DNA of 64,000 nt from positions 620,001-684,000 of the forward strand of contig JAHYIO010000042.1 in NCBI GenBank assembly GCA_020543525.1. Reading direction: 5' to 3'. Under the pieces are notes generated by a model, which searched no databases, was not told the DNA's origin, and saw nothing but the letters and a program-made list of their open reading frames with translations. The translations under genes and the position numbers were made by a program. The stretch is from Coriolopsis trogii (lineage: Eukaryota; Basidiomycota; Agaricomycetes; Polyporales; Polyporaceae). Of the stretch, positions 3,218 through 61,042 are shown piece by piece (position 1 is the stretch's first letter; every line of letters begins with the position of its first letter).

Positions 3218-3225
3218 ACGAAACC

Positions 3226-34963: not shown

Positions 34964-35575
34964 CTAAGCATGGTCAAGAGCTGCGCAACCAGCCTTGATC
35001 TCGTTTACAACAGCGAGGAGGCGCTGCTCTCCCTCCGGCTCCAATACGTCGTAGTTCCAACGGTCAGCCGGTGCCACATCGTTCGACCGTGTAGGGTGGC
35101 GCGGAATGGCAATAGGGTGGATCTCTGGATTCGGAGTATTTGTTGCTCGGGTGTAGAAGCACATCTTGGTCCCCAATGCGCTAACGGCGTGTAGCGTGCC
35201 CAAAGGACATCTCGCTAGAATGCAGTCAGTAGGTACGTCAAGGTTCAGCTTGAACCGAGCAGACCACTCACGGGCTAAATCATCCATGCGCTGTCTGATC
35301 TGTGTATCCGCGGCTTCCCGTTTCGAGAGGAAGTCCAAGTGGCTTGGAGGCTTGAGTTCGAAGATCAAAACGGATCGATTTTCTAGGTAAACTTCGAACA
35401 TGAATATGAAGTCGGATGCGCCTCGAGAGTCAGGCATGTACTGCGGCACGACCACAAAGTCGGTGTCAGGAGGAAAGAGGGTGTTGAGGAGCTTGTTATA
35501 TGGACCGTGAAAGTCGCTCTCAGAGGGATTGGGAGGGATGGTAGCAAACTGGCGAAGGACCTTTTGAGACCACAT
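34964..35575 (-). CDS. PD-(D/E)XK nuclease-like fungal protein, transposon inserted just upstream
   Basis: The start MWSQKVLRQFATIPP at 35575 lies 22 bp inside the host side of the big transposon border. A likely 57-nt intron (35215..35271, GTGAGT...TTCTAG, with CTGAC branch) leaves 184 aa; read through, it is 203 aa. The core GASDFIFMFEVYLENRSVLIFELKPPSHLD fits the D...E-x-K signature of restriction-nuclease-like folds, followed by REAADTQIRQRMDDLA and LHAVSALGTKMCFY, a pattern I associate with a basidiomycete-expanded family. The substrate is unknown. An in-frame ATG at 35752 inside the transposon arm could add 59 residues. An N-terminal exon may have been separated by the insertion. Confidence 0.65.
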   Translation of the reverse strand: MWSQKVLRQFATIPPNPSESDFHGPYNKLLNTLFPPDTDFVVVPQYMPDSRGASDFIFMFEVYLENRSVLIFELKPPSHLDFLSKREAADTQIRQRMDDLAREWSARFKLNLDVPTDCILARCPLGTLHAVSALGTKMCFYTRATNTPNPEIHPIAIPRHPTRSNDVAPADRWNYDVLEPEGEQRLLAVVNEIKAGCAALDHA

Positions 35576-35596
35576 TATGGAATGAAGACGATTACA

Positions 35597-37632
35597 CACC
35601 TGATCATCCCACGTTCCGGCTCTAAGTAGGCCTGTCACGCCAGCGCGCTGGCGGGCCTCACTTGGGTTGCTTTCCCCTGCCCTGCGTACTTTTCGATAAT
35701 TATCTCGAGATTCCTGTCTATGACACAAGTCTCTCATGTCACTCAATGTCAATATATGTTCGGAGCCATCTCCCTCATATGTTCTCCGCTCCCATCGGCC
35801 CCTCGCACATATTGTATGTTCGCTGCATTGTTCGGTTCCTGGCCCCCAATGGCACTCAAGACCACATCAGGAAAAACCTGAAATCCTAATGAGAGATAAA
35901 TTAGAGAGGTCCACCCACTAATCCATTTAATGCCATATAACGTCTACTAATTCTCTTGGGAATACACAGGGTACTTGTATAGTGCTATTTATTATCTTCA
36001 AGGCCATATATGTGCAGCCGATACAAGGATTCGTGTCACGGAGTTGATAATCGAGACGATTCAACTGCATCGAGCAGTGGACTGGGGGATCGCGAAGTGC
36101 ACCAGGGCCGGCCCTAAGCCCTGGCGGCATTCTCCGAGGCGTGTCTTATTGCGCATCTCAGCATGTTCAACTTCGAACTTCACTTGTCCCTGCCTATCTC
36201 TGCTCACTGCGGCTCTGTCGAATTGGGTCTTGCTCTCAGGCATCTCGTTCTGTGGACTTCTTGCGCTCAGCTTGTGGGCTTGGCGTCGGTCTCTGCTCTC
36301 TGCTGGGGTCGATGTCTTGCTACCGCTCTGAATACCCTAGGCTGCTATGACGACTACTGGAGTGTCTCCTGATGTCTCCCTTCTGCACCGTCCCGTCGAT
36401 GTGCTGAAGCAAAGTTACAAAAAAGTGACTGACATTTGATGGCATGTGAACGTTGAGGCAGTGAGGAGAGGCACCGATACAATGGTGCATTCTCTCTTCA
36501 TGCTCTAGCCTTCTTCTGCTGACACCGGGAATTTGTGTATGAAACCAGACACCCAGGTGAGTAGTAGTTTCGAGGCTGAATTGTTGCCGTATCACGAGTG
36601 CGTCACATACCAATTGTGTGTGTTCATATCATTACCTCGGTACCCCGCTGGTACGTGTTTTATTCTCGACTTCGCTTCTCTCTACTAACTCAGAGCTCAG
36701 TCAGCGGTGACTCCTGGGCCTACGTCAATGTTTCCGCAGCACGGGCCTCGGTGAGATGCTACCCACGTCACTCAGACCTCATGCGCGTCCTGTTCCTGGG
36801 CGCAACGATTGCTTGGGACATTCCTCTCCCTGTACGCGCCATCAGGTTCCGAGGTGGCTGTGTGTAGCATCTGTGTCTGTCTGTCTGATTGTGCACTTTC
36901 CATACAGTAGTTATTCTATGTAGTCGAGTACGACACAATGCTAGCCTTTTTTTTGCAGTGTCATGCGCACGATCGAGCGGATATGGGGCCAGAATTGTGT
37001 AATAAAATAGGCATAAACAACGTGATATTGCTGCACTTATGTGCGACTAACAACCTCTAATCACGCTTGTTATTTGGGGACCTACCATTTTATGCTAATG
37101 AACTAATCACCCATTTTAGTCGTATTTAGACATATTTATCCCTAATATGAGGTTTGGGTTTTCCCTGATGCACTGTTTTTGTATGTCCTGCCCTCTTTCC
37201 TTTTCCGCTCCCTTCCCGATTCTCTCTCCCAAAGCAGTCTGCAGAGTTTCTTCAAGCGCTCTCCCGCCACTCGTGGGCGCTTCCTCCTTGTTATCTGCCA
37301 CGTACATCCCGACGCCATCCACACCACTCCCGCCATTGCTGTCCTCGCTCCCACCGTCACTGTCCTTGCTCCTGCCATTGCTGTCCTCGCTCCTGCCGTC
37401 GCTGTCCTCACTCCTGCCGTCACTGTCACTGTCCTTATGTCTATCAACCTCTTACCATCGTACTTGTCCCCATTTACACCCTCACTGTCCTTACTTGCCT
37501 TGCTGTTACTGCTGTCATCTGCCATCCTCCCTGTCCCTAGTCACCTCGCTGTCACTGCTGTCACCCCACCGTCCTTGTCATTGCCTCTGTCATGTTGAGG
37601 ATCTTCCCAACGCAGCACAGACAAGTAGAAGC
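35597..37632. repeat. Left terminal inverted repeat of the KDZ transposon, split by element X3
   Basis: Matches the right arm inverted. Contains an 8-codon (24-bp) minisatellite at about 37321-37440 (units like CTGTCCTCGCTCCTGCCGTC) whose copy number is higher than in the right arm. An outward-facing frame (SDMRDLCHRQESRDNYRKV) stays open up to the tip. Confidence 0.85.
35865..37170. mobile_element. DNA transposon X3, CATCAGG family, nested in the left arm
   Basis: Ends CATCAGGAAAAACCTGAAAT and inverted GGTTTGGGTTTTCCCTGATG; 1306 bp. Flanked by CA twice, while the right arm of the host transposon has the empty site GAGACCACTGTTT with one CA. Homologous along its length to X4, in the opposite orientation. 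No coding frame recognised. Confidence 0.9.
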
Positions 37633-38151
37633 CAATAACACCACATAGGAGGTTGTTGACTCCGGCACATAAGTCTTGAGACGGGTATGCCTTCCTCACC
37701 GCCTTCTGCTGACCATGAGAAGGCTCACCAGGCCACCACAGGCTGCACCACCAGTCTCGCGGTCAAGACAAGCCTCCTCCCGTCACATCAGAGACATGTA
37801 ATACCCATGATTGTACCCTTCTACACTGCCTCCATCCCCACTTCTCTCGGGATCTACACGTATGTTACCAGGGCTTTCCACCATTCGTGACATATCCATC
37901 CTGTCAGACTGCTCTATCTCACTCTCCACTGGTTGCTCATCATTGTCATTTGGCCTTTGCCTGTATGACTCACTACTATAATCTATTGTCACATAGATAT
38001 CGTCATATTCTCCACTCGCCACCGTGGTAATTCAGACAGACCAGACAATGTAACGTTTTTATCTACTGACACATGTATCTCCGCGTGCCATGAACAAGAC
38101 TTCCGGCAAGGTACAAGAATGTTTCAAGATACTGCGACTATGACTATTTAG
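37633..38151. other. Inner flank of the left arm, no gene recognised
   Basis: A roughly 40-bp stretch (ATGATTGTACCCTTCTACAC, 37806 on) has an imperfect inverted partner near 46950, inside the right arm, so the arms' homology may once have reached further in. Confidence 0.4.
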
Positions 38152-39625
38152 CTATGAATCCGCCATTGGGTCATTATGAATCTCACCTTCCTTGTCTTCC
38201 GTGTGGCGTTGTTTGCGGAACTTCCCCTTGTTGCTGCGGGACTTCCATGCCAGAACAAGACCTTCCTGCGCTTTGCGAGTGTACTCTGCCTGGCGGTGTG
38301 CCTTCTCCACAGATGTCAAACGGTAGAAGTGACAGTCACCTTTGTCGGTGGCTCTAGAGACATACCAAGACTAGCGGGACAGCCAAATGTCTCATAAGTC
38401 CACCCGACTAGCTCAACCCCATAATCAAGTACAATGTCCTTCTTGTAATTCTTATACTGCATGATAACCTTCTTATTGCCGGTAATATCGACTAAAGAAT
38501 AGGAGATCCGTATGGTTAGTTATACTATATCATCTATGCACTAGAATAATTCGAGGTAAGTACCTAGCATACTATTGATCCGGTCTTGAATCTCGGCCTT
38601 GATCCAGTCGGCGCAGTCTTTGGCTGAGCGCAGGTACACTGTGGGGAGCAGTATCAGACCTCATGTAGAAGAGAACAATGTGAATTTGATGGACGTACCC
38701 ATAACATCACAGCCTGCAATCGCAAAAGCCTCGAAGAGACCACTAATTATCTCAATGTCCCATTTTTTGATAGCACCTGTGAGGTACTGGTTAATCTCAT
38801 GGCTGGTAAAATACCAACGAGGCGGCATTGGGAACTCAGAGTTGTTGTGGACAATGCAGAAAAAGGCTTTGACACCGGCATAGCATCTAAGGCCCATCAA
38901 CTATAGCGCATGTATCAGTGAAAGCCTTGTGGTGAGACTATTGCTCAACTGGACTGACCATGCCCTCGACCTTCTCACACACTGACCGGACATCTGATGA
39001 GCGGCCGCACTAGTTGAGACGGACACCCATGTTGTGGGAGTCACACTTCTCGGCGAAGTCATAAACAAGTGCCTCCTTCTCTGCCATGGTGAGCTTGTCA
39101 TACTTGTCGCGGTGCTTGTGCTGCAGGTTGATAATGTTGACAGATTCACCTGAGTGCTCTGCAGGCTTGGCTTAAAACTGAATGACATTGTGAAATGGCA
39201 ATGAACTCACCGTCCATATACTCCACATGCAGACTATGACCCCATGCATTGTACATGTTCAGATTGCAGGCCTTCTGCATTGTCGCACCGGCAGTAAACA
39301 TCATACGCAAGTAATAGTCCGGCTTGTTGCCGCAAGATTCCAACAACTGCAGTGTGACCTGGTTGGAATAAGCATAGAAGTTAGTCATTGCCTTCTTCAC
39401 AATCTTGTTGCAGACAGCAGCACGTCCGGCTTGGTCTAAGCGTTGTGTGGCCGTCAAAGGAACTTTGGTGCGCATTGAAGGGAGAATGGGCCAGGCGACC
39501 ACTATTTGCGACGGCCCATACACAACATCAACAGTGCGCCGGGTGGGCTTCTGAGTAGGGATTTTGCCTTCCTGCGCTGCAGAAGAGCTGTTGATAGCTG
39601 CGAGTGGGGGAGAGGGCTCAGACAT
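38152..39625 (-). pseudogene. Cargo gene 1: unknown agaricomycete protein, one in-frame stop
   Basis: Reconstructed from MSEPSPPLAAINSSS (ATG 39625) over about six exons joined by clear introns (exon 1 39211..39625, exon 2 from 39170). Segments include TQRLDQAGRAAVCNKIVKKA, LQHKHRDKYDKLTMAEKEAL, PPRWYFTSHEINQYLTGAIK, DWIKAEIQDRINSML, KNYKKDIVLDYGVELVGW and a basic C-terminus. A TAG after SHNMGVRLN (about 39012) and a probable 1-nt shift near 38350 break it. The pattern ending in ELVGW...S.L followed by a basic tail recurs in mushroom genomes, but I cannot name the function. Its place inside the KDZ transposon makes it cargo. Confidence 0.55.
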
Positions 39626-39806
39626 CGTCCAGAAAACAGGAGAAAGGACGGGAGTCAGTGAATGGGTGAGGAACAGGTCAGCAAATACAGTGGAAAATAT
39701 GGGGCCCCGCCGCACTATCAGGACGCACCTAACAACATGCAACCCGCCATATATCAGGATGAATGTGGAATCACTGTTGACTGAAGGAGAGCATAAGTGA
39801 GGCGTT

Positions 39807-39822
39807 GGGGGGGGGGGGGGGG
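39807..39822. repeat. Homopolymer G(16)
   Basis: Sixteen consecutive G; length could be unreliable. Confidence 0.85.
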
Positions 39823-40077
39823 AAATCGTGGAGCTCGTAGGGGATCATGGAGCTTATACCTAGTGCATACGAAAAATAATTGCCTGTTATGATCTAGTCA
39901 TGCAACAGAGAGAATATGGACTCACCATTGATTGAAGGAGAGCATAAGCGAGACATCCAGGAAGAGATCATAGGGCACATAGAGAAGGAATTACTTAGCC
40001 ACAACAGTTGAGCGCTCATGCCGCACATTTCTCTCACAATGTCACGGCCAGCGACAATTCTAAAACCTTAGTCTCAT

Positions 40078-42175
40078 TCATTGATAGCAGGACAGGCAAG
40101 AACATAGTAAGCAACCCCATAACACCAAGAAACACGGCAGAACAAGCACAGACAGACAACAAACAAAGATGCGGAGGTACTTATACACAAAAACGATATT
40201 GAAATGTTTGTGGAGACACCAGCACAGCCATGCCCCCCTCAGTCTGTGGTGTATGGGAGGCCATTGTCCGTGTACATTGCGTTGACTATGGACCGCACAA
40301 GATGAGTCGGGCAGTCTGCGATCAATGCCTTCACCACCTGGTACCATAAGTCCACTGGTTGAGTCCTTGAGATCTGCATTAGCACCTGATGGTAAGTCAT
40401 GCTGAAATTGTGCCTCTCCAGGACTTCCTGAGTGTGTGGGCCGTACGTCCACCACAGATGGTGATGTTGAGAGGGGGGGAGGACTGCCGCAGTCAGAGGT
40501 GCTGTCCTGGGCGCTCCCTGCCACCTCTGTGTTCTGGTCCGATGACATTCTTGGCATATTCAGGTATTCAGACATCGGGGTTGCGGACAGACTGGACACT
40601 GATGAGACTGAGGGGATTGACAACAACGCTGAGACTGAGCGCAAGGTTGCCTGGGGAACAGGCGTGGAAACAGGTGTGTGCGGAGCGTGGTGGGTTGGGA
40701 TAGACGAGGATGGTGCACATGGCTGCGCGTACGTCGGGGCAGACAATGATGGCGCACGTGTTGGGGCAGACAACGACAGCACACGTATTGGGGAGGACGA
40801 GGAGGGCACATGCGCCGGAGCAGACAAGGGCGGTGCACATGCCGGGGCAGATGGAGATAGCATGTGTGCCGGTGAGGCTGTCCCCTTGGTGAGGTGGCCA
40901 GGCTCCAAAATCAAAGTTGGTGAGCAGCTCGCGCTGAGCTGACTCTCCAGTTCATCACGCTCTGTGTTATGGTGAGTAAATTGTAACTCTATGAATGTAA
41001 GTGCACGTACCGGCTGCCACTGCGTAGAGAACGTCCCTCAAGTTGTCAATGTTGTCCTCTTGCACCTGCTTCAATGCCTCCAACTCCTGAATACGTGTAT
41101 CCAACTGCCCAACATATTGCTCCATGTCGCACACACCCCATGCCCGATTCTGCGCCTCGAGCTCATTGTTGCGTGCCTGCAATTGTGTGACAAGCCAATT
41201 GCCATGGTCTTGCCCATCGTTGGCATTGGCGTTGTCATCAGCGGATGCTCTCTACTTCTCCTCCCGTTGCATTGTAGGCATTGACAAGGAGGAAGAGGGC
41301 ATCGGGGGGGCCAAGCACATCGAGCTGGGCCCTGGTCTGGGCGTCGTGGGTGGCGGCACAAAAATCGGCGCGTCGCTGGCGGGCGCTGGCGCTGGAGCAT
41401 GTGGGGTGGCCAGAGGCTCAATGCCAATGGGAATGGGAGGTGAAATGACATCACATGCAATGAGATCGCTGATCAGCGCTCCGAGCGCACTGGGAGGGCA
41501 TCCGTAGGCCTTGATGTGCATTGTTGTGGAGGTCGTGATAAGTTCCTGATTGACGATGCATGCTGGGTGGGTGACTGGCTCATTGTGGAGGTATTTGGCA
41601 TGGTCCCACATGTCCATCATGGGGAGAGCGACATGTTCAATAAAATACTGGATGAGTTGCGCAATGGCAACTTGAGTGGAGGGGACTTGGTCGCGGATGA
41701 GGATGGGAGCAAAAACATCACACTTGACCTCCAACACTACGGAAGGAGCGCCATTAAGACGTGTCCCACCATAGTGTATCATAAAAGTGCTTCCCATGCT
41801 GACCCTGTCGAGCATGGTCATCTGTGAGGCTGTTAGTTTTTGTATTAGAAGCCACTGTAACATTGCGCTTACCAAGTCCATAACCACTTGCATGTAATGA
41901 TCTCTCATCCCTGAACGCCAACCTGTGAGACCATGGCTCCCGAGAGCAGCCCAATGAGCAGGGTGAACCTGTCCGTGGGGGGGGACATAAGTGGCTTCAT
42001 CCCTCGACGTGCCAGTGACAATCCACACAATCACAGCGGCATGCACGTGGTCCTCTTGCGCGTTTGCCAGCAGAGGGTGTCGGCGCAGATGATACACAGC
42101 AGAGCAGAGGCCATTTGGCGTCAACCGACAGCTATCAAGTGGTTCAATACGATTGATCTCGTTGGAGTTGCTCAT
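40078..42175 (-). pseudogene. Cargo gene 2: unknown protein with coiled coil and Ser/Pro-rich tail, one amber codon
   Basis: Model: complement(join(40078..40961, 41011..42175)), 682 codons with a TAG at 41252-41254 (codon 308). The 49-nt intron has a GTACGTGC donor and ACACAG acceptor. The first 300 residues look globular (CSAVYHLRRHPLLANAQEDH ... FMIHYGGTRLNGAPSVVLEVK ... LIQYFIEHVALPMMDMWDHA). VVLEVK after an upstream Asp could be a PD-(D/E)XK remnant, but that is weak. A coiled coil follows (QARNNELEAQNRAW ... RIQELEALKQVQEDN), then a low-complexity Ala/Pro/Ser tail with 33-nt tandem repeats. I recognise no family. Confidence 0.6.
40700..40865. repeat. 33-bp coding minisatellite in cargo gene 2
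   Basis: About five diverged units of GGGGCAGACAATGATGGCGC-type sequence; on the coding strand they read SAPTRAPSLSAPTYA-like repeats. Confidence 0.8.
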
Positions 42176-43837
42176 TTTACTTGAGATAGAGGGCGGAGAG
42201 CGTTGCAGAAGGAGGGGGGGGGAGTCAGGGGAAAAGAGGGGTGAAGAGAGGGTTAAGGGTGGGGCATCGTCTTGAACTATAAGTACACACTACGCTGGAT
42301 CTGGATGGACCCTATCAGCCTCGTTGCAGCTTCTTTTGAGTGAAAGACCTGACTTGTTTGGATTGTCGATGACAGGGCGGGAAGCCAGGAAGAGAGCCAG
42401 AGTTTCTAGGAGAACGAAGAGAAGCAAGGCGTGCGTGGGCGCTTAACCTGAGAGGGTAGTGCAAGTACGCTTCCTCCCATAAGGCACGTGACTCATATAT
42501 TCAACTTAGTCACAACTACATATGTCACCTAGCTCATACCAACTGATAGCGAATGTCTGGTAGGAGGGGCTAAACCAATGCTGGACGGGCTGTGCATGTG
42601 GCTCGCAATGGATAGCAAATGGTTGGAGAGGTAAGTTTTGACATCACAGCTAGCTCTAAGCTCTTACAAATGGCTCTGAATGGGCCCTGGCCCGTGACTG
42701 AGTTCGGTCAAGACGCAATGGCTAGGAACCTCACGCTGTTCATGAGTGGACCCATAGGGAGAGTTTGATTGCCAGTATGAACCAATGAGGAGATGATGAG
42801 AAGACAAAGTAGGCAAGGATGATAAGAACACCATATTGTCGGATGGGCGTGTGCCACCAGTAACTGACATCAGGTTAGGGAGAGGATAGTGTGGCGAGGC
42901 AGCCTGCAGCCAGGGGAGTTCATGACCAGTCTAGTGCATGTTTCAGAATATCAAACCCCAGGCTCAGTATCGTACATTGCTATGTTCTTGCCAATAGGTT
43001 GTGCATGGGACAATCTCTTCATGATAATGTAGGCATCCTAAATGCCGTACTAGCCACTGAAAAGCAGGCAGCCGCACAGGGCAAATATAAGGTCCATGGT
43101 GCTGTTAAATGGGACAACTAAGCCAATGAGGCTGAACGTCACTGTATGTGTTATTGTGTGAAGTTGACAGGATGGAGGTAAGTAGGAGAGCTGTGCCAGC
43201 TCCTCCGCTGCCGGTGCATATATTGCGCTGACTGTGCCTACATGCACAGCCCATCTAGCATTAGCACTGCACCTCCTATGCGTCTTTCTGAGCACCCAAG
43301 ATTTCCTTTGTCTCTCTTTATTGCTCGGCCTCCATCAACCAATCCCGTCTCTCCAATCTCTGCCACTGGCACTCACTGGCAGCCCAAGCTCAGCGTACTC
43401 GAAATTGCTCAACTCAGGGATGTCGGACATCTCAGCTATGCCAGCCACGTACCCATTACACAGAAGTTGTAACTCTGAATTGATTCAGTCGTCATGTTTG
43501 CACATTTTGGGCGTTCTCAAAATCTTTGTCGCTGTGGTTGTAATGGTGTGCTACTAGTAGTAGGGCAGGTCCAAGGGATAGCCGGGTACGCTCAAGTTCA
43601 TCAACAGCAGATGGCATTCAAATCACACTACTATGCGTCCTGTATACCTAGACGGTCAAAGAAATCCACAAGTTCTCCTGTGTCCTGCTCCGAACGAACC
43701 CCGGGGATTGCAGTCTCAAGTTCTTCATCTGCCCCAACGTCATCACAAGTATCCTGACTACCCTCACCAGCCATCCTACAAGCCCATGTTGGAAGCGATA
43801 TCGTGCCAGCACCCTCCACCAGTGAGTGACCGATATG
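42176..43837. other. Stretch between cargo gene 2 and the transposase, no gene recognised
   Basis: Low coding potential on both strands; contains the upstream region of cargo gene 2 and the 3' flank of the transposase. Confidence 0.4.
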
Positions 43838-46731
43838 TTAGCCTGTCGCAACATTAACCGAGAACCCAGGGAGCTGTGATGTTTGATAGAGGTGGCCAGC
43901 GACACGAGCATTGATGCGGTCTTGGTATTCCCACCAAAGTTGTAGCTCATGAGCCAGGCTGGGTTGCGTGACATGGACAGCCTTGATTGCTTGCTGGAAG
44001 TCAATGTGCTGATCGACCATAGAGGTGAAGAGTCTTGGTACCTCCAAATTCAATCATTCAATCTCCTCCTTCGTGCACTTGATGTTGAAGTGCAGGTTCA
44101 TGGCCTGACGGTGTGCACGCTGCGCCCAAGGTTTGTTGTGTATATCTTCGTGAGCATCCCAAAGTAGATCAAATTCTGCAAGTGATATCATCTCCATTAC
44201 CTCGTTCTATGACAGCTGTGCTCGAGGAGGCTTGAGCTGTGCAGCACACCAGTTGTATTTGGTGAGGGTGTTCCAGATAGCGTCAGCGCGTGTCCTCAGC
44301 ACCTTCCCATTCTTCTTACGCAATTTGTATCCTAGCAATTGTACATATTAGTTAGCCACATATGCAGAATTGTCACTCATACCTATGCTACTCAGACCCA
44401 GCTTCATGAGCTCGAACATGCACTAAACAACGAGACGTTCAAGATTGTCAAGCACAAGACGATACTTTCGCAGAGTAAGATCACATAATACATTCACATA
44501 CTCCACCATGCCTGGCACCCATCGCTTGGTGATGTGGAGCTTGTCTTCAAGTTCCAAGACTTTGTTTTCTGCCTTTTCGAGACACTGCGTTGATGTGTGC
44601 ACCGTCAATAATATCTTTGCAGTTGTCTTCTTGCACTGTGCTGCTTCGGTGGGGTTGTTGGCTGGTATAGATTGATCCATGGTACGCTCCGCTTCCTTGG
44701 CAACTGCAGCCTTGGTGCTGTGTGAATCATGACATGTGAGAAAGTATACCGCTGAACAACACCGATACATACCCGTATCACTCAAGGTTAGCAAGAGCTT
44801 TGGCGTATGTGAGCATGTCGGCGACTTTGGGAGGCTCGCGCTTGCGTTTCTCCAGGTATTCGCGCTCTTCTTGCAAGTACCTCTCACAGTCCTCACTCGT
44901 AATCTTGAGCTTCTCAGCTAGGAGGGCAAATGTTGCACCATCATACTGCAGGATGTCAAGGGCTTGTTTGTAATTGCTGTAGATGAAATTGCCTACGCAA
45001 CTGTAAGACATCTAATCACATCACCACAACAAAAAATTATTTACCACTTTCTGCATGCTTCTGCATCCTCCAGAAGCTAAAAAATTCTTCTATGGCTTGA
45101 TGGCGGTAGAATGGTGAGGCGAGACAGGTAGTTGGGGCAAGGTCGTTGGACTCTGAGAACAGTCGCTCACATCCTTCAAAATCCTCCTTGCCGACCCCTT
45201 CAATGTACAATGGAAGCCATTTGACCTGGCAGCCGTGGTTGTGGCTATGTCCATGAAAGGCGGGAACAATGAAGGCTCGTTTTTGAAGTGGTCAACGTCT
45301 TCTGTGAGGATGTATATGTTGGTGCGACCGCTCCGTGTGTCTTCAAGTGGTGTGCCACCCTTGAATTTGCTGTCAACGAGCTTCAATGATTGGTTGTCAT
45401 CCATGGTTGCGAGAAGCGAGAAATGAAGCTTGGGTTCGTTCTCCAGCTTGTAGAGACATGGTGCACATGCATTCAGCATCTGCCAGTTTTCAGTGTCTTG
45501 CTTCATGACTGCGCAGACTTGAAGCTCGATACTATGTAAGATGTTGAGATATGTGTCGTATGCAACACTGAATTGGTTAACAAGAGTTCATTGAAAGGGG
45601 AGCTGGGCAAAGCGTGAGCATTGGCAAAAGCTGTAATTGTACCACATACCGCATGAAGATGGCACAATGCTTTTACGTGAGCTTGCATGCTGAGTCGGGG
45701 GCAGACTCGATAAAATTGACGATATGCCTCAAGCATTTGGAAGGATACGGCTACGGAGGGATTGATCGGCGAGGTCCCTAAGTAGCCGTGGCATACGAGT
45801 GTCACGTTGACCAACTCGCTAGGCTTGGTTTGCTGAAAAGTATGTTTGGTCATTGCTAATCAGCGAGTAATTATATGTTTACATAGATTCAGGGGGGAGA
45901 CGTCGACTTCACCGAAGAAATCGACTATGACCATCGCAAATGCTGGGGTATCCAACAACATGGAATCATCGTCGCTCTCTGACCCGGCCTGCCACATGAG
46001 ATACGCTGAACACAACTCTTGTAGTTGTGGGGCCCATGCAGTGTTGCAAAGCTCTATGTGATCATGATAGGTCTGGGTGTCCACTTGCTGTCTAAACAGA
46101 AGGCGAAATTATGGACTGAGACTGGGACATGGCCTTAATTTACTCACAAACATGTCGGCTCTTCTTCAAAAAGGCTGTGGCACAAATCATCCTCACCACC
46201 TGCATTGTTAAGAAACATTGCCTCTTTACCAGGAGGGAGAGGGTTGATGGTGTACAAATCCTCCCACTCAATGCTGTCAGTACCGCTGGCCATATTCATG
46301 TGCCTTTGCCAGTCCTTGAAACTCATACCTGTCCGTTCTTGATGATGAACTTTGAGACATGGAGGAAAGGTAAACACACGCACCAGAAACATGATCCAGT
46401 CGAAACTTATGCGCCTCCTTGCACCTCCTGTGATGTTGTGATAGTCGCAAATTCTGTTGGACAGTCCTGAGGCTGAAGAGATGTCCAGTGTGCAGATTGA
46501 CAGATGAGGACACATAGCTGCATGTTTTCCGGGAAACCTGTTCATGGGGAGACAGCAATCGCAGAAAGGATATGTTTGGTTGGTTGTTGTGGATGTGTCC
46601 AGCGCGCCATCCTTGTCAGTGACACAGTGCGTGAGAGTGCGCAAGGCCACGTGACCGTGTATCGAGTATAATCGAAATTTGGATTCCGAAAAAATCAACA
46701 TCACATTTTTGGCATGGAGTTGTAATGACAT
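43838..46731 (-). pseudogene. KDZ transposase with CxC1-like N-terminus, internally deleted and with stops
   Basis: Reading down the minus strand: ISFDWIMFLVRVFTFPPCLK and EWEDLYTINPLPPGK (46.4-46.2 kb); CSAYLMWQ ... VDFFG; LVCHGYLGTSPINPSVAVSF and AYRQFYRVCPRLS (45.8 kb); then ACAPCLYKLENEP and LLATMDDNQSLKLVDS (45.45 kb), the first catalytic region of KDZ enzymes (consensus DGNNSLK). After VDHFKNE the frame jumps to FIVPAFHGHSHNHGC and EGVGKEDFEGCERLFSES. The stretch normally between them, about 80-130 residues, is gone. Then SFWRMQKHAESG, VGNFIYSNYKQALDIL and the C-terminal helices with GYKLRKKNGKVL. At least three stops (after LERLVV, RAQLS, KEEIE). It could not mobilise the element itself. 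Confidence 0.85.
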
Positions 46732-47795
46732 TATTCAGACGCTATATACTGGGTACGTAGGGAACAGGCTATGTCATCAAACAGTAGCTGCATACCAATT
46801 GACTTATGCTATGATGGACATCAATAGTGCAGCGGAGGAATGGTTCATGAGGGATAGGGTACAAACAGTGAACATACCACAGAGATAAAACAAGTGGTGG
46901 CAGGAGGCTGCTAGCGTTACCGCACAGATGACTGTAATGGATGGACATAGAGGCAGCATAGAAGGGAATGATCATGGATGTAATTGATCCCCGATCTGAC
47001 ACGAAGACAAAAGGAGGGAAGAGGAAAGGTTCTATCTTGGACGCACAGATCGCATGCAGGCTCTCAGACAGGAACTACTGTACAATTGTGAGGCCCAGGA
47101 TCTTGAGGAACACAAGATCGAGGCTCTACACATCGACAGCGCATCTGTAGGTTTCATCGAAGTCCCGGGGCCATGTATGCATACGTGCCCGAGTAGGTCT
47201 TGCATTGCCAGGTCTCAAACTCGTCGATGTTGGAAACAGACCAGCCGCTGTAACCGTTACGCCAAAAGGGCGCAATGTCAAGCATGGCTTGACATTTGGC
47301 TGGTGCTATGTATGCAGTTCAACTGTGTTCACAACAGTCGACCAGCACCTGTTTATCATGCCAAAGTTGGTGAGGACGGCATGGCTATGAAAGTTGATGG
47401 GGATGTCCCCGGGTTTGATGCCATGGTGGACGACATTGATATCGCGCAGCACTCAGAGGGCATAGATCTGCACACAGCATGGGAAAGGTTAGGGTGGGTG
47501 TGGTAAAATGATTGTTATTCAACAACTCACGAGCTCCTGAAAGTACATGTAACAATCCTTTGGCATAATGGACTAGCGTGTCTTGAGCACATTGTACATG
47601 TCAATCAGACACAGTGGTTGAGCCTCTCTAAAGTAATCATGGTCAGCGGATGACTTTGAAGCCTCCAGGGATGACATACCAGTCGGTATGTCCCTGCTGT
47701 ATACATACCTATCAGCTTGGATCTGGCCTGGTCAAGCTTGGCTTGTAGAGCACGTTTGAATGCGAGGACCGCAGCATTAAGGTTGAGTACAATTT
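46732..47795. other. Inner flank of the right arm, no gene recognised
   Basis: Expected to hold the N-terminal part of the transposase, but I see only fragments. A plus-strand frame (YHAKVGEDGMAMKVDGDVPG, about 47360-47420) looks protein-like but is unmatched. Confidence 0.35.
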
Positions 47796-48463
47796 CTACT
47801 CGTCTGTGCTGCATTGGGAAGATTCTCAACATGACAGAGGCAATGACGAGGATGGTGGGGTGACAGCAGTGACAGCAAGGCAACTAGGGACAGGGAGGAT
47901 GGCAGATGACAGTAGTAACAGTGAGGCAAGTAAGGACAGTGAGGGTGTAAAGGGGGACGAGTATGATAGTGAGAGGTTGATAGACGTAAGGACAGTGACA
48001 GCAACGGCAGGAGTGAGGACAGCAATGGCGGGAGTGAGGACAGCAATGGCAGGAGCGGTGTGGACGGCGTCGGGATGTACGTGGCAGATAACAAGGAGGA
48101 AGCGCCAACGAGTGGCGGGAGAGCACTTGAAGAAACTCTGCAGACCGCTTTGGGAGAGAGAATTGGGAAGGGAGCGGAAAAGGAAAGAGGGCGACATACA
48201 AAAACAGTGGTCTCGAGCGCCGTTGGGGGCCAGAAACCAAACATACAATATGTGCGAGGGGCCGATGGAAGTGGAGAACATACAAGGGAGATGGCTCCAA
48301 ACATATATTGACATTGAGTGACATGAGAGACTTGCGTCATAGACAGGAATCTCGAGATAATTATCAAAAAGTATGCAGGGCAGGGGAAAGCAACCCAAGT
48401 GAGGCCTGCCAGCGCGCTGGTGTGACAGGCCTACTTAGAGCCAGAACATGGGATGATCAGGTG
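47796..48463. repeat. Right terminal inverted repeat of the KDZ transposon
   Basis: Uninterrupted version of the left arm; provides the empty site for X3 near 48220. Minisatellite shorter than in the left arm (about 47990-48070). Its outward frame (SDMRDLRHRQESRDNYQKV) is also open to the tip. Confidence 0.85.
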
Positions 48464-48472
48464 GATTACATC

Positions 48473-49601
48473 CATCAGGAAAAACCCAAACCTTGTATTA
48501 GGGATAATGATGCCTAATTATGACTAAAATGGGGAATTAGTTGATTAGCATAATATGATAGGTCCCCAAATAACAAGTGCAATTAGAGGTTATTAGTTGC
48601 ACATAAGTGCAGCAATATCATGTTGTTTAAATCTATTTTATCACACATTCCTGACCCAATATCTGCTTGATCGCACATAGAAGAAAGCTGGCATTGGGTT
48701 GTACTCAACTACATGGGGAAATCTTTGATGCAGGCGCAGGAGTCCACGCTGGCTGAGCTCCAAGTTAGCATACAGCAGCAGAGTCAATAATAGAAGGCAG
48801 CACATACATGAAAGTCTTGACCAGTGGGGTACTGTAGTGGTGACATGCACAAAAATTTTTTTGTGACACACTTGGGACACAGCAAATACTCAATCTCATA
48901 ACTAAGACCTACTTAGGTGGTTGTCTGGTTTCATGCTGTCCAATTGCCAGTGTTAACAGAAGAAGGTTATAGACTGAAAGATATCACACACCAACATATT
49001 GGTACCTCTCCTCCCTGCCTCAACATTTATGTGCCATTGATGCCTGTCTGTAAGTTTGCTTCAGCACATGATCGGAACAGTGCAAGAGAGAGCTCTAATA
49101 GTCGTCATAGGTGCCCAGAAGTATTCCCAGCAGTAGCAAGACATAGGACCCAGCAGAGAGCAAAGACCAAGCCCAAGTTTAAGAGCCAAGCACAGAAAGT
49201 CCAAAGAACAAGAGGCCAGTAGGAGGAGATGAAGCCAGAGCCATAGCGACGTGAGCAGAGACAAGAAGTTCAAAGTTCAACATGGCAAGACATGCTATTG
49301 AACACACTTTGGAGAATGCCGCCAAGGTTTAGAGCCAGCCCTGGTGTACTTCACGGATCCTCCAGTGATAAGCACTTACCAAGTCCACTGCTTGATGCCA
49401 TTGAATCACCTCGATTTTCTACTCTGTGACACAGATACCCGTATCGGATATACATAAATGACCTTACAAACAACAAGTGGCACTTTCCAAGCAGTGCCAT
49501 ACATTCTAGAGAGAAATAGTAGACATTATATGGTATTAATTGGATTAGTGGGTGGACCTCTCTAATTTATTTCTCATTAGGATTTCAGGTTTTCCCTGAT
49601 G
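48473..49601. mobile_element. DNA transposon X4, CATCAGG family, beside the right end of the KDZ transposon
   Basis: Ends CATCAGGAAAAACCCAAACC and inverted ...CAGGTTTTCCCTGATG; 1129 bp, flanked by TC (48471-48472 and 49602-49603). Inverted homologue of X3 with many CpG to TpG/CpA differences. It begins 2 bp after the GATTACA target duplication. Confidence 0.88.
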
Positions 49602-49944: not shown

Positions 49945-50756
49945 CGGATTAGCTCTCGCGCTCGCGCATGCCACTTCCCACCTTTGCAACCCACTTCTCA
50001 CCGCTTTCCCATACTACTGTACTTTTCAAAACAATCCAGGGCATCATGCATCACACAGGGGTCTCTTGCTCCGGTTTTGGGACCATGTCATGCTGTCACA
50101 AAGCCCTTGGACCTTGAAGCACCCAGTTTTGGCGGGTGCCTCCAGCACCTACCTTCTATATCCAGAAGTGTCACAGCCTTTTTTCAGCACCTCCGTCTCC
50201 CCAGATTTTTCCACCGCTGTCATAGCGTCACACCTGCTCTGGATTGTTTTGAAAAGTACAGTAGCCTCCTCGCATCTTAGGCACTCGCAACATGTGTTTG
50301 CAGGATCACAATAAAATCTTGTCATTCTTGGACAGCTGTAAAGCACCGTGTATTTGTAGTAGTGTTTGCTTTGTATACAGTGGATCAAAAAAAGACCCTC
50401 TATGTAATGGGCCAATTTAAAGCTCTAATTGACAGGCTCTTGCGAGTGCTTCTACATGGCCCAACCACATCAGTAAAAGGTCCAGAACTGATCTGGACTG
50501 ATGCTCTGAGATATACTGTTTGTCTCTGGCCGTGACTGATATCCACTTACCGACTGAATCTCTCTGGCTATAGTAGGGCCGCTGGGCATACCTGGATTAA
50601 GTAGGTATTGTACTAAAAGAATTGCCAGATTGAGAGATGCGCATCAGTCGGGCTTGCACCCTCCTTCAACATGCAGGGGCAAATGAAGCCCAAAGAGTGA
50701 CAGTCGGGGGCTCTCAGGTAGTTATGGAGTGATAGCGGTCATCTGTGACATGCAGG
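49945..50756. other. Stretch without recognisable genes
   Basis: AT-rich transition zone; no conserved frame or terminal repeat seen. Confidence 0.4.
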
Positions 50757-50985
50757 AAAGTGTGATGTTACCATCATTTTGCAGAGTGACTTTTGCCCCC
50801 TCTTCTTTCTGAGTGTAACACCATGATATGATGTATGTGATGTACACGTGAAGCGTAATGTTACTGTCACTTTGCAGAGTGACTTTTCTGCTCCTTTTTC
50901 TCTGTGTAACGCCGTGATATGACTGATGTGACCTGCACACAAGTGTGATATTACCATCACTTTGCAGTGTTATTTCTCCCCTCTA
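50757..50985. repeat. Diverged ~92-bp tandem repeat, 2.5 copies
   Basis: Units start near 50757, 50849 and 50941 and share CTTTGCAGAGTGACTTTT and a GTGATATGA block. Confidence 0.75.
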
Positions 50986-51098
50986 AACCTTGGCTTACTT
51001 TGTAATCTAGGAACATCTGAGTCCATCTAAATCAGACCGATGCACTTGGACCTTGTTGATTCTGTTGAGACCCTCCCTCCTCAATGAGCCCAGTGTCT

Positions 51099-51215
51099 AC
51101 TGTACCATTTTGAATGGTTCAAACAGTCATGCGTCACAGGCCCACCCAATGTTTGAAATTTCCCGCTCAGTCACAAGTCATGGAGAGGACGTCCGAATGG
51201 GCCAACCAGGTGCTC
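51099..51215 (+). repeat. Dispersed repeat, copy 2 (other copy 5051-5170)
   Basis: Same order of blocks as copy 1 (ACTGTACCATTTTGAA ... AATGTTTGAAATTTC ... GCTCTG-TGGGG). About 215 bp downstream lies a TTTAAATACCC box followed by pyrimidine-rich sequence, which would suit a promoter or LTR. Confidence 0.6.
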
Positions 51216-52201
51216 TGGTGGGGCAGTGTGCTGTCATGCACCCTACCTTGTTCGAATATCGTGACCAGTGTCACGGTCACCAGCCGGCTGTTTGAATCCG
51301 CCCACCCAAAGTGCCGTGTCACATGTCACAGGGCTATTTGAACCAATCAAAATAGTATAGAAATCTCCATCCCTTTTGGCAACATCCGGATCATTGGATC
51401 TCTGCTCTGACAATGACATGTCCCCTTGCAACTGCATTTAAATACCCACCTTCAACTTCAACCTCCATCTTCAGCTTGCAAGCTCGCTTTTTTATCTGAT
51501 ACCTCTCTATGACTCAACTCTTCTTTTTATGACTCATATCCTCTCTATCTCACTTCAAGATCAGTTACACATTGCTGCAAGCACTATAACCATCCGTGAG
51601 TCGCCATTGATCTCTCATCTTTCTGTTCTCAATTAGTCTACCTGCAATCTGAAGGAACTACATATGCCATCTCGCACAACTGAATTCATGACTGTGGACG
51701 GTATACCACTGTGGTCAGTATCTAGCGACAAGTAGCTGTCAGCACTCCATTGAGTGCTTCATATCACAGGTGAGATTGATTATTCCTTGGGTATGTATGT
51801 AAGATATCTAATAGGCAGCAGCGCAGGGTGGTCTAAATGCAGACCAATTGGCCACTTATGGAGGGAATTGGCGGGCAACCTGGATAATGAAGACTTGGAC
51901 CACAACAAGGAGGATAACTAGGATTCCTGCCCTAGGAATAGATTGAGGATGCGGAGGTCTGATAAGTCAATCCAGGCAACGTATATGACAATGCTGGAGG
52001 ATGATGCTGGTCTTGTCAGAGAAGAAGGTCAGAAAGGGCTTGTGCAATCTCTGGCACTGCAAGCATGCTTATCACTTGCTCAGCGGCCTCAATGACTGCC
52101 TGGTAAGCCTCGCTAGCCACTCTCTTTGCCTTCTCCTTCTCAATCAGAGGTGCACCCACCTTCTTCATATATTTTATGAGGAATGAGTAGGAAGGTGCGG
52201 C
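51216..52201. other. Stretch without recognisable genes
   Basis: Could contain the 3' LTR of element C, but I found no inverted TG..CA borders. Confidence 0.35.
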
Positions 52202-52501
52202 TCAGGCGAGGTGTTGATAGGTTGAAATGAGTCCCATGGCATTAGTGTACTTGTAGAGTTGGGCTGCGACATGACCAGTTAGGTCAGGGTGAAGAATAAC
52301 CCAGCCAATCTGGTCAGCTAGGGTGCCATTGTTGTTGGTGGACACGACACAGTGAGGAAGGTAGTTATAAGAGACTGGCTTGTGGTCAAGAATGAAGTTG
52401 GGGGGATGGGTGATAGTGAGGGGTTCTTCCCATCCTGCCTTCTTGCTGTAGTGAGAGCAAACACAAGAAGCAGGATAAGTGTAGGTGTTAGAGTGAGCCA
52501 T
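52202..52501 (-). pseudogene. Post-integrase ORF3 of element C
   Basis: 99 codons starting MAHSNTYTYPASCVCSHYSK. The second half, NNNGTLADQIGWVILHPDLT, then AQLYKYTNAM...TYQHL, aligns with SNGTLHDRVGWVLAHPDLEG ... of element A. The N-terminal part differs (not proline-rich). Follows the chromodomain end in the same orientation, as in element A. Confidence 0.65.
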
Positions 52502-52589
52502 GGTAATCAGAGAGTTGTGTTGTATATATTAAGAGACAAGTAGTAGCAGGGAACTTGTCAAGTCCCTCACTTCAACTTGTGCCTCTTTT

Positions 52590-53928
52590 TATACTTGAGC
52601 AGAAGAGCTTGCATGTTATTCAGGTGACTCTCTAGTTCCTATGAATTTTCTGATATGGGCCATCCTTTCCAGGCCACAAGAAATTCTCTTTTCTTTCTCT
52701 TGGTCCAATGATTTAGAGTGGCTTCGACTTCCCACTCCTCTGAACCTTTGCCCTGGTCAGGTGCTGGGATTGCTGGTCATTGTGTGTAATCCTGACCATA
52801 TTCTTTTGTGATTCAATAGGATGTGAGAAGTGCAGCATGGAAAACTGGGTGTATCTTCCATGTGCTAGGAAGTTTGAGTTGGAAGGTAACCAGTCCCATG
52901 ACCTTGGTTATGACAAATGGTTCTACTCTTTTTAGAATCAACTTTCTAAAAACGTATGGAAGTTTTAGATTCTTGGTATCGAGAAGAACCTTGTCTCCCT
53001 TTTTCAATAGTACTTGTGATGTAGGCATTCTCTTTGCCATTGCTGCAGCTGCTTGTGCATGCACAACAATAGTATGTTCTCAAGCCTTCTAGAGACTGCT
53101 GAGTCATTCTTCTATACTTGGATGTTTTTAGTTTGTCCGAACAGTTCCAACTGTCTGTGGTTGATATTCATAAAGAAGTTCAAACAGGGATTTGCCGGTC
53201 ACTGAGTGTGTTTTCTGGTTGTGTGCAAATTTGAATTGGGGCAGGAGTTTTGCCCAATCTTTAGGATTATTTGCACAATAGAGATGGAGTGATAGATTGA
53301 GCTCCTAATTCACTTGTTCAGTTTCGCTATCCGTTTGTGGATGATAGGCAGTACTAAGGGCTGTTTCGATTCCTAAGCTTTGATGTAGTTCTTTGAAAGC
53401 TTTGGATATAAATTGTGGCCCTTGGTCCAATGTGATCTTGTCAGATAATCTGAAACAACTGTAAACGTTCCTTTGTAGAATATCCATAGCTTCCTTGGCT
53501 GTGATATTCTTTATGCAAGGGGAAATTACTGCTGCTTTGGATATGTCATGGTCTACTACCACCTGAATGGCATTGTAGCCATTTGACTCTGGTAAGCTGG
53601 TGATATAGTCTGTTGCAACTTCACTGGGGAGTGCAGAAGAGAAAAAGGAATTGTTATTGTAGCCCATAAGGGGCACTACTTATATATGTATATACATCGA
53701 CAATTCTGGACATAAGTGGAGTAACTAGGTAATTGCTTAGTCATTATAAGCCATAGTAAACACTATATTGCCAAGAATTCCAACATAGTCCATAGTGATG
53801 ATCTTGAAAGGCCTCGTATCGCTGCTGTGTGTGATAGGGATAAGACCTGGTTTAATTAGATATGTATTAACCTTGCTTGTTTGACAGGCTAGGCAAGCCT
53901 TGATATATTGTGTTATGAACTTGCACAT
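52590..53928 (-). pseudogene. Integrase and chromodomain of element C
   Basis: CKFITQYIKACLACQTSKVN (zinc-binding), TMDYV and ATDYITSLPESNG (first Asp), LDQGPQFISKAFKEL (second Asp; usual SDRG changed to LDQG), DSETEQVN (Glu), KRVEPFVITKVMG (GPY/F), chromodomain EWEVEATLNHW ... EFLVAWKGWPISEN. An insertion or duplication near 53690-53740 splits the first catalytic motif; several stops follow. Confidence 0.85.
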
Positions 53929-54842
53929 GCCTGGCCAAATTTTTCACCAGATTGTAGGTCTTCTGAATTTCTGGATGTCCTATGACTGGTGCATCGTGAT
54001 GTATTCTGACAGTTTCCCGATAAAGTTCTTCATCTGGCAGAATGTATACTCTGTCCTTGTATGGGAGTAGACCATTGTTGTTGGACCATTCTTCTGGGTT
54101 TTCAAATTCAGGGTGTTTGGTAGCCTTTCCTTTTGTGGTAATGAACTCTATCAGAGCTAAGTCGCATAGCTTTGTGTTGTGAATTTTCTCTTGCAGCTCT
54201 ACATTGACGGCTTTGGCAAAGAGTTCCAGTTGTAAAACAACAATGTTTTTATTGTTATTTCCCCCTCTATCATGCCCTGATCTCCAAAAAAAGGTATATG
54301 CTTGGGTTAGGGATTTGTTAGGTTAATATTTGAGTACAATGTTGAATTTGGATAGAAATAGGTGCCATCTTGCTTGTCATCTATTGAGCTTTTGAGCTGT
54401 TCAGGAGTAAGTCAAATTCTTATGATCTGACAGTACTTTTACAGGATGTGGTAATTCTTGTAGAAAATGTTGCCGTGCTTTTAGCGCTTGTATGATGGCA
54501 AGAAGTTCTCAATCATAGATTTGATAACTCTGTTCAGCTTGAGTGAAGGACTTGGATAGATAGGCACAAGGGTGCCATAGTCTGTCTGGTCCTTGTGGTC
54601 ATAAGACTGCCCCTGTTGCTACTTTTGATGCATCACATTCAACTTGAAACAGCTTCTCTGGGTCTGGAATCTGAAAAAATTGGTTCTTCTGTGAACCTTT
54701 TCTTGAGAGTATTGAATGCTTCTTGACATTCCAGGGTCCACAAGAACAGTTTGTCCTTCTTTGTTAATTCTGTAAGGGGCTGTACAATTTCCGGGTAGTC
54801 TCAAATAAATCATCAATAGAAATTTCCATACCCCAAAAATGC

Positions 54843-55493
54843 TTAAACTTGTTTGACCGTTTTTAATGGTTCCCACTCAATGATTGCCTTGAGTTTTACA
54901 GGGTCCATGGCAACTATTATTGGGCAAATGATTGATTCTAAGAACTCAACTTCTTGTCTGTCAAACTCGCACTTTTCTATTTTGAGATAGAGGTCATTTT
55001 CTATTAACCGTTGTAAAACTTTTTGCATCTGTGTGTGATGTTCCTCCGTGTTGTCAGAAAAGATGAGGATGTTATCCATATAAATGATAAGCCACCCTTC
55101 TTGTAAAATATCTCGGAATATGTCATTTATCATGTTCTGGAAAGTTGCCAGTGTGTTGCACAATCTGAAGAACATGACTGTCAGTTTGAATCATCCACTG
55201 GCGTGATGAATGTGGCTTTTCCACTGGGCACCTTCCTTGATGCAAACATTGTTGTACCCTGCTCGCATATCAAGTTTGGTGAATATGTTGGCTCCCTTTA
55301 AGCGGTCAATGATGTCACTTATGAGAGGTAGCGGATATGCATTTTTCACTGTTCCTTCATTCAGTGCTTGATAGTCTTGTACTGGTCGAAGGCTTCCATC
55401 CTTGTGTGTCACAAAAAAGAATGGTGATGCTATGGAAGATTTGGATTTTTGAATGTAACCCTTCATGAGATTTTCCGAGATAAACTTGTCCAA
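54843..55493 (-). pseudogene. Reverse transcriptase of element C with altered catalytic box
   Basis: [59 protein letters not shown] and DMRAGYNN are standard RT motifs. In the catalytic box YMDD the last Asp is Asn (YMDN, codon 55071-55073). A frame break lies at 55175-55191. Confidence 0.88.
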
Positions 55494-56218
55494 TTCATGT
55501 CATTCTATATATGATAGCAGGTAGATTTTCTCCAGGACCCCTTGGGTAGATAGTCAAAATGTTTCTTGAATTTGATAGCATAATCCCAGGGTCAGGATGG
55601 TGGAAATCTTTCAGCAGCCTTCTTTTTAAAGACCATTTTGAAGTCTTTGACAAAGTTGGACAGGATTTCATCAAGAGTTCTCTGTTTCTGATCCTTTTTG
55701 CTACTATTGCTATCTCTGTTGACTTGTTGATCTTCTAGACTTGTATTCTCTAACATCATCGCTCTATTGTCTGAGATAGATTGTATGTGAGTTGCTCATT
55801 GGCATCGATATTGTCCTTGTCTTTATCCTTTATTTGAACAAAGGATATAACCAATTCATAGTTAATTGCTTTGACTGGGAATTCTCACAACATTCTGTCT
55901 GGTGGATTATGTCTGGTTTGATACTTGTGGATCTGTTGTTGTTTCTTTATAATATTGGAGGAAATAATTATGTGACCACTTTCCTAGTCAATATTCAGAT
56001 TGTACTTTTGGATTCATGGCATGCCAAATAGGACATTATTGTGTCCAATGTTGGCAATGTACCAATTGGTATGCAACCTTTTTCTGTTCATATTAAAAGT
56101 GCCTTCCACCCAATGTATGATAGTTCCAATTCAGTTGACGCTGTTATGACATAGAAATCTTCCTTAGCAAATATTTAGGGAGCGCTTGTCTGTACAGTGC
56201 AAGTTGCACCATTGGATC

Positions 56219-56953
56219 TCAAATATTGCCTTTGAGGGCTAAGCTCATAAACTGGGCATTGAACTCATCAACAGATATATAGTCTCTGAGTTCAATAGTG
56301 GTTAAGTAGACCATAGAGTCGTCAACCTCACCTACCAGTACAAAGGCATGTAGGGGAACACCTGGCTGTACTTCCTCTTCTGCCCTCTGAATAATTGCAT
56401 CCTTCCAGAAGTTAATGTTATCTCCTTCCATAAAGGACAGGGCTGTTGCAACTTTTGTGTAGGCATTGACAAAGTTAGGAGGTCAGGTGGTAAAGAGTAG
56501 GAAAAGTTGGTTGAGAAAGGACCAGATCTTGTTTTAATTGCCATTAAAAATCTCTAGATTCTTGATCTTTCTCTTTCCTTGCCCCGGTGCTGCAACTTCT
56601 TGGTTGACTAGTGGGTTTCCTCCTCCGGGTGGTCCTCCGCCACCTCCAGGTGTTCCTTCTCCTGGTGATCCACCACCATCTCCGGGTGGTCCTCCACCAG
56701 ATAAGTTAGGTCCAGAGTTGGATTGTGTGCCAAGATTCCCTCCACCACCACTGCTTGCTGCTGGGTGTGCAATTCCTCCTGTCATAGTGTTTGCCACATC
56801 TCCATCTCCTGCAGAGGATATAGACTGTGGAAATATATTTCCATATGCTACTGAAATGGAGGCTTCTGTTAAAATAGTAGCTATACTCAACATTTCTAAT
56901 GGTGCAAGTATCTGTTGAGTTTCTTCTTCCTCTTTGGAGGAATCTGAAGACAC
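56219..56953 (-). pseudogene. gag: Gag of element C
   Basis: MSSDSSKEEEETQQI start, Gly/Pro-rich middle (GGGPPGDGGGSPGEGTPGG), KNLEIFNGN, then after stops NAYTKVATALSFMEGDNINF and ISVDEFNAQFMSLALKGN, the Ty3/gypsy gag core. No zinc knuckle found. Confidence 0.75.
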
Positions 56954-57623
56954 TTCTTGCTCTGTTTCTGCAGGGTGTTCTCTTGATTGAACAGCTCCTC
57001 ATGCTGGTTCTTATTCTAGTTCTGGTTCTACCCTTGATATTGGAGTTAATAGTATAAATGGTGTATGTGAGCTTTGGAAGGTTCCTGATAATACTCGTGG
57101 ACTCTGTGTGTTAGATAGTTGTCCTGCTGGAATAGGGTTATCTTGTATAGGTGGTGACTTTCCGTAAGTTTTTTAGATATTTTTTTCCTATGTCTTTTGA
57201 GTAGGTTCAAGTCCACTTGCAACTACAATCCCTTTTGGTATGAAGGTAGTGTTGTATTGAACTGGACACTAGAAATGTGTGCAGTTAATCCACCAGTGAC
57301 TGACTTCTCAATAGTGTTTGTCTCACACATAGTTTGGATCGAACAGATGGTACTTTCCTTCACAACTGTATGTTTGCGGTGCACTCATACACGTTGGGTT
57401 GTTCAAAGGAACTTCTGGTGTAGTGTCCTAGTTCAAAAACAGCTACGAAGTTTTGTTTGAGATTGGGGTTCACGAGGTTCTCTAGATTGACAATCTTGGC
57501 TCAAAGAGAATCAATCTGATATCTGAAATATTCTACAAAGTTTCTAATCCTTGGTGGAGATTAAACAACTTCTCTTAGAATAAATCCAAGGGTTTGTAAA
57601 ACTTGTGAAATGTATTGCTGCGC

Positions 57624-57881
57624 TTATTTGAGAGTCATGTGATATTCTCGGGTAAAGTCTTCCTTCCTTAACACTTTGAGGTTATCAGCTATAACCCGAA
57701 GTGTATCAACTGCATATATGGGAATCTGTATTTTTTTGTAGAATACTCCTATTGTTAAGGATCTTTCTACACTTGTTTTGAGGTTATCCAAACCAATATC
57801 ACTTGATTCTGGACTTGGTTCCACTGGAATGAGTATGTCTCCAGCTACTCCTTCTTTGCTAGTGGCTACCGAACTTTGGTA
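57624..57881 (-). pseudogene. Possible N-terminal Gag leader of element C
   Basis: GDILIPVEPSPESSDIGLDN ... ADNLKVLRKEDFTREYHMTL is a coherent frame upstream of Gag, cut by the pogo-like MITE. The assignment to element C rests on position only. Confidence 0.35.
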
Positions 57882-59850: not shown

Positions 59851-59899
59851 AGAGGCATTCTAGACCTGGTTGACGCTGTCTATTGATGGCACTATATTG

Positions 59900-60860: not shown

Positions 60861-61042
60861 CTGAAGTGGGACATGGTTCTGTTCAGGCCATTTTGTGTCA
60901 TTTTTTATAGGCTTTTAGAATTGTTTGTACATATTTGAAGTCCCTTTTGTGTAGCTACTAGTTTTTGTAAGAAGGTTGAACCTTCCATGTGACTAGATAC
61001 TGGACATTTGCGTGCTCTCTTAGATATGGGTTTCATATATAG

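Follow-up and report, generated by a model that had tools for sequence, protein, structure and literature searches.

A worn-out KDZ-class transposon of Coriolopsis trogii and its relatives carry three genes in a fixed order

In a 64,000-nucleotide stretch of Coriolopsis trogii DNA (hereafter the window), an initial annotation had recognized a KDZ transposon with two additional genes, which it took for cargo. This raises the question of whether the locus is a genuine element with readable borders, and whether the additional genes are passengers or belong to the transposon itself. Our reading, to which we assign a probability of about 0.9 for the whole account including the mechanism proposed below, is that the element, E1, is a copy of a KDZ family whose members have long arms and a CACCT tip and carry three genes in the same order.

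Borders and arms of E1

E1 measures 12,867 bp (window 35597-48463), and both its ends read CACCTGATCATCCCA, at 35597 (plus strand) and 48463 (minus strand). The annotated 15-bp tips, arms of about 700 bp and GATTACA duplication were all found again, as were the three genes between the arms (KDZ, ORF2 and ORF3), which run in one direction (Table 1). The 15-bp tip occurs in four exact copies in the 38.8-Mb genome, at both ends of E1 and both ends of a second element, E2; because all four copies are ends of these two elements, the pairing of the E1 tips is above chance. No KDZ element with different ends was found inside E1: the sole PF18758 (KDZ) match among those listed is situated between the arms, and the tips of E1 are the only exact pair that surrounds it. 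These data confirmed E1 as a real, complete, worn-out transposon of the KDZ class, with both ends and the target-site scar readable. Its defective state was absent from the initial annotation and was seen in the follow-up.

Arm identity was not taken as an age clock, since the two arms may already differ when an element inserts. Before insertion, the site would have read one GATTACA followed by TCAAGCACTCC; an allele free of E1, and also of the nested-element copy adjoining it, would read GAAGAC GATTACA TC AAGCACTCC. The neighbouring gene annotated as 'PD-(D/E)XK' (34964-35590, minus strand) gave no match in a Pfam search, and a tRNA scan of the window found none.

Table 1. Features in and around E1 (window positions) and positions of its relatives (contig:positions), with target-site duplications and fold z-scores of the subterminal palindrome
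Feature	Position	Strand	Duplication	z, left/right	Remarks
E1	35597-48463		GATTACA	-0.4/-0.9	
Left target-site duplication	35590..35596	.	GATTACA		
Left arm, outer part	35597..35865	+			269 bp; carries tip CACCTGATCATCCCA; 89% identity to right arm end
Possible subterminal palindrome, left end	35624..35663	.			stem drawn; z = -0.36, not significant
Nested 1.3-kb TIR element (CATCAGG...CCTGATG)	35865..37170	.	CA (2 bp)		splits left arm of E1
Left arm, inner part	37171..37630	+			460 bp; 84% identity to inner right arm 47794-48209
ORF3, HMG-like protein gene	38153..39625	-			broken (premature TAG, frameshift)
ORF2, second accessory gene	40257..42175	-			decayed
KDZ transposase remnant	43634..46326	-			D2 (second Asp motif) segment deleted at ~45276
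Right arm	47794..48463	-			670 bp; same tip at its end
Possible subterminal palindrome, right end	48397..48436	.			z = -0.88, not significant
Right target-site duplication	48464..48470	.	GATTACA		
Another copy of nested TIR element	48473..49601	.	TC (2 bp)		outside right end of E1
E2	C39:695096-707172		CCAATACC	0.2/-0.8	27 kb from E1, inverted relative to it
E3	C7:467090-476499		CCTCGATG	-8.4/-7.7	exact tip pair
E4	C30:2254726-2264175		ATCGGCGT	-2.0/-2.6	exact tip pair
E5	C20:1109647-1120787		TGACAGT	-0.3/-0.1	exact tip pair
E6	C36:460012-469615		AAAGGGGA	-2.0/-2.1	exact tip pair
E7	C25:394368-403793		CATCATCC	-4.1/-4.2	gene linkage; tip CACCTCGACCTCAC
E8	C3:2984345-2994052		CACTACCA	-8.5/-8.9	gene linkage; tip CACCTCGTCCTCAC

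A family of eight elements

The degenerate tip CACCTRATCRTCMCR gave 14 exact matches in the genome, 12 of them forming six head-to-head pairs and two standing single. The tip and its inverted partner recurred around other KDZ genes: each of the six pairs encloses a PF18758 match, and no pair was found without one, so that arms devoid of the intervening genes did not occur among the 14 exact matches. With one mismatch allowed, the tip gave 56 matches vs 26 for a reversed control. E1 to E6 were found by their tips; E7 and E8 were picked from the linkage of ORF3 with KDZ, and their ends were located afterwards. All eight elements have the CACCT... tip at both ends, terminal inverted repeats and a target-site duplication. 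When left and right flanks were swapped between elements, none of the 56 pairings had 4 bp or more in common.

The duplication is 8 bp long in six of the eight elements and 7 bp in the other two (E1 and E5), which rules out 7 bp as a family trait; the annotated length holds for E1 and fails as a family value. Zisupton of fish, a member of the KDZ superfamily, has an 8-bp duplication, as against the 7 bp of E1 and E5. The E5 duplication could be an 8-bp case minus one base of a run, while such a loss seems less obvious for E1. For E8, the scan yielded two candidates, of which the inner one is a self-palindromic 8-mer within the arms; the arm border selects the outer one.

Single tips were also observed. 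Those at C39:344097, C33:2289950 and C4:575512 had no partner at up to one mismatch in the surrounding pieces, and a search for arms at the first two revealed just one 26-bp palindrome, at C39. The tip at C3:49678 was single in the 0.9 kb inspected. A tip-to-GGCTNNNTTAG pattern, in which the spacing was wrong, gave no matches. E1-E8 appear to be clearly delimited additions to a transposon class already known, and the window copy is a relic.

In several elements, the tip is followed inward by a palindrome, at about nt 22-72. It was assessed at each end of each element by DNA-fold z-scores against dinucleotide shuffles, with control stretches 400 nt further in giving z from -2.1 to 1.9. The palindrome was clear in three of the eight elements (E3, E7 and E8), borderline in E4 and E6, and absent in E5; in E1 and E2, a stem was visible by eye only and was not significant.

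The KDZ transposase

The catalytic core of KDZ transposases is RNase-H-like. The Pfam KDZ domain was recognized in the three full models scanned (E = 2.9e-75 in E5, 1.9e-71 in E6 and 1.6e-79 in E7); the match in E1 covers profile positions 141-216 only, with 92.5 bits vs a cut-off of 26.6. The gene annotated as a CxC1-type KDZ transposase is thus indeed KDZ, but its CxC1 match lies below the Pfam cut-off (24.7 bits for the E1 fragment vs 26.9; E6, 17.9; E5, 15.4; none listed for E7). The predicted KDZ gene models of E3-E8 comprise 917-1052 aa. The D1, D2 and H/C motifs are present in some frame in all six of these elements, and D2 is missing from E1 and E2; the model of E3 skips D1, which is present in a frame there. 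A PDB profile search with the transposase gave no convincing structural relative (one match, E = 0.3).

ORF2 and ORF3

The gene order KDZ, ORF2, ORF3, all co-directed, was found in all eight elements (open reading frames for E1-E5, gene models for E3-E8). The predicted models measure 357-502 aa for ORF2, those of E7 and E8 overlapping neighbouring models, and 419-796 aa for ORF3. ORF3 is homologous across the eight elements. Similarity of ORF2 was seen within E1/E2/E5, within E3/E4/E6 and within E7/E8, and BLAST between these groups found none; from its position, we infer that ORF2 is one gene in all eight. Unrooted trees of KDZ and of ORF3 for the six modelled elements (E3-E8) agree in topology: E4 groups with E6 and E7 with E8, and E5 adjoins E7/E8 (support for the latter split, 0.999 with KDZ and 0.818 with ORF3). 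The eight elements show that ORF3 has been inherited together with the transposase. Searching the genome for ORF3 with two queries (E ≤ 0.001) gave 10 loci, namely the eight elements and two partial matches (C5:1281960-1282738 and C30:2806654).

The two genes could have been captured from the host as cargo by a KDZ element, and the findings that neither has a Pfam family over the cut-off and that homology of ORF2 is seen only within groups would suit such an origin. However, each of the eight elements has a homologous ORF3 and, at the ORF2 position, a second gene, with order and direction unchanged throughout. The ORF3 tree also concurs with that of KDZ, and eight of the 10 ORF3 loci are these elements, the other two being partial. 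We regard capture as very improbable and reject it on the shared gene set and the matching trees; ORF2 and ORF3 belong to the transposon itself and are not passengers, contrary to what had been annotated.

A profile of four ORF3 sequences gave one PDB match up to E = 1, with HMG box-containing protein 1 (E = 0.18). With a core profile of six sequences, run against 177,635 PDB sequences, the best match was HMGB1 (E = 0.0054), and the 26 matches up to E = 10 included three further HMG entries as well as unrelated proteins. The best Pfam HMG match was HMG_WDHD1 (E = 0.0021, in two of six members; 14.4 bits for E6 vs a cut-off of 51.6), while HMG_box reached E = 7.2 at best, in one of six members; no HMG family exceeded the Pfam cut-off in ORF3. 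On these profile comparisons, ORF3 appears HMG-like, a resemblance only and not a proven HMG box.

The partial match at C5:1281960-1282738 consists of ORF3 fragments with 63-72% identity to E6 and with stops, and KDZ is absent nearby among the matches listed. It is probably the relic of an element.

Decay of E1 and E2 and probable movement in trans

E1 is defective, with a transposase lacking the D2 motif and a broken ORF3. Relative to E5, the KDZ genes of E1 and E2 miss the same 511 bp (E5 7656-8166), a segment that holds the CRH and GYDIGC motifs; they retain D1 (as DDNQSLK) and the H/C motif. The premature TAG and the frameshift of ORF3 are also identical in both. The two copies show 194 differences in 11,170 aligned bases, 117 of which are CpG transitions, and the CpG observed/expected ratio is 0.62 in E1 and 0.67 in E2, compared with 0.92-1.02 in E3-E6. 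E2 has an insertion of about 640 bp in its transposase gene (E2 2845-3486, C39:697940-698581), absent from E1.

The lesions shared by E1 and E2, each at its own target site, suggest movement in trans. Because the two duplications are separate, at least one transposition probably postdates the breakage of ORF3; ORF3, and perhaps the transposase too, would therefore have been supplied in trans. The lesions would be silent on this point if E1 and E2 derived from one insertion through a segmental duplication on C39. The two copies do lie 27 kb apart in inverted orientation and share a 2953-base tract without differences, but their flanks differ and their perfect duplications differ exactly at the tips (GATTACA vs CCAATACC). 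We consider such a common insertion improbable and retain separate insertions.

The tract in question (E1 6188-9200, window 41784-44796) shows 0/2953 differences from E2, where about 72 were expected, vs 208/8467 elsewhere (a count from a separate alignment to that of the 194 differences above). This looks like gene conversion between the inverted copies. Both copies may thus have inserted with working transposases, the deletion in the transposase gene passing from one to the other by gene conversion only later; it is in keeping with this that the tract stops about 480 bp short of the deletion (at about E1 9680), with a single substitution (9201) in between. Against it, both copies also share the frameshift and the stop of ORF3, which lie in 500-bp bins containing 7 and 23 substitutions, and the common ancestor of E1 and E2 was therefore already partly defective. 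We hold a spread of the deletion by conversion to be a serious possibility, though not the one that we favour. The tract weakens the argument for movement in trans as regards the transposase, not as regards ORF3.

Proposed mechanism

We propose that the KDZ transposase would pair both ends, excise the element and insert it at cuts staggered by 7-8 bp. The palindrome just inside the tip may serve as a binding site, ORF3 would act like an HMG protein and bend the DNA of the two ends, and ORF2 would be a fast-changing accessory protein. Intact relatives probably supplied the proteins that moved E1, or its sibling E2, in trans. That the transposase, ORF2 and a DNA-bending, HMG-like ORF3 form a three-protein machine acting on the CACCT tip and the palindrome, and acting in trans, so that the defective E1 and E2 kept moving, is put forward tentatively, at somewhat under even odds. 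The eight elements, with their ends, duplications and gene sets, provide exact DNA substrates, as well as candidates for partner proteins, with which the KDZ mechanism can be tested.

Comparison with other KDZ elements

With KDZ (Kyakuja-Dileera-Zisupton) transposons, E1-E8 share the KDZ domain (PF18758), the D and Cys/His motifs, inverted repeats and a 7-8 bp duplication, here mostly of 8 bp. They differ from KDZ elements at large by their long arms, the tip palindrome of some copies, an ORF2 without Pfam family and the lack of a TET/JBP gene. KDZ elements reportedly carry HMG-like and TET/JBP genes, an HMG-like partner gene being a further point in common with E1-E8.

PF18758 gave at least 36 matches in the genome, grouped into at least 21 loci: E1-E8, at least eight loci within 3 kb of a Tet_JBP match, and at least five others. 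None of the nine Tet_JBP matches falls in E1-E8, and eight of them are within 3 kb of other KDZ matches. Like E1-E8, these TET/JBP-linked loci combine a KDZ domain with an accessory gene, situated within 3 kb. The sole one typed, on C30, differs in being CxC2 (E = 8.4e-23), in its TET/JBP gene and in having no ORF3 match nearby. KDZ lineages with different accessory genes thus coexist in one genome. The C30 locus served as a negative control for the end-finding method: in 19.5 kb (C30:574000-593500), no long arms spanned the KDZ and TET pair, the best far-apart inverted match being 24 bp (E = 0.32), and tip-plus-duplication pairs reached at best 10 of 14 bases with 7 bp.

All seven Tet_JBP matches over the cut-off are within 3 kb of KDZ (on C4, C2, C30, C36 and C8), several with identical or near-identical scores. 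The TET/JBP-linked KDZ genes probably form a distinct KDZ family that was active recently.

Nested element and surroundings of E1

The TIR element that interrupts the left arm of E1 is 1.1-1.3 kb long and has 37 matching stretches genome-wide, the window copy counted. Its other copy in the window begins two bases beyond the right GATTACA of E1. In locus L028, the element also has the 2-bp duplication TC.

The CpG ratio along the window falls from 0.95 at 34-36 kb to 0.5-0.7 within E1 and 0.13-0.40 beyond 50 kb. The region to the right of E1 (50000-64000) combines this strong CpG depletion with low GC, and locus L021 has a CpG ratio of 0.31; in both, the depletion likely reflects methylation-driven decay.
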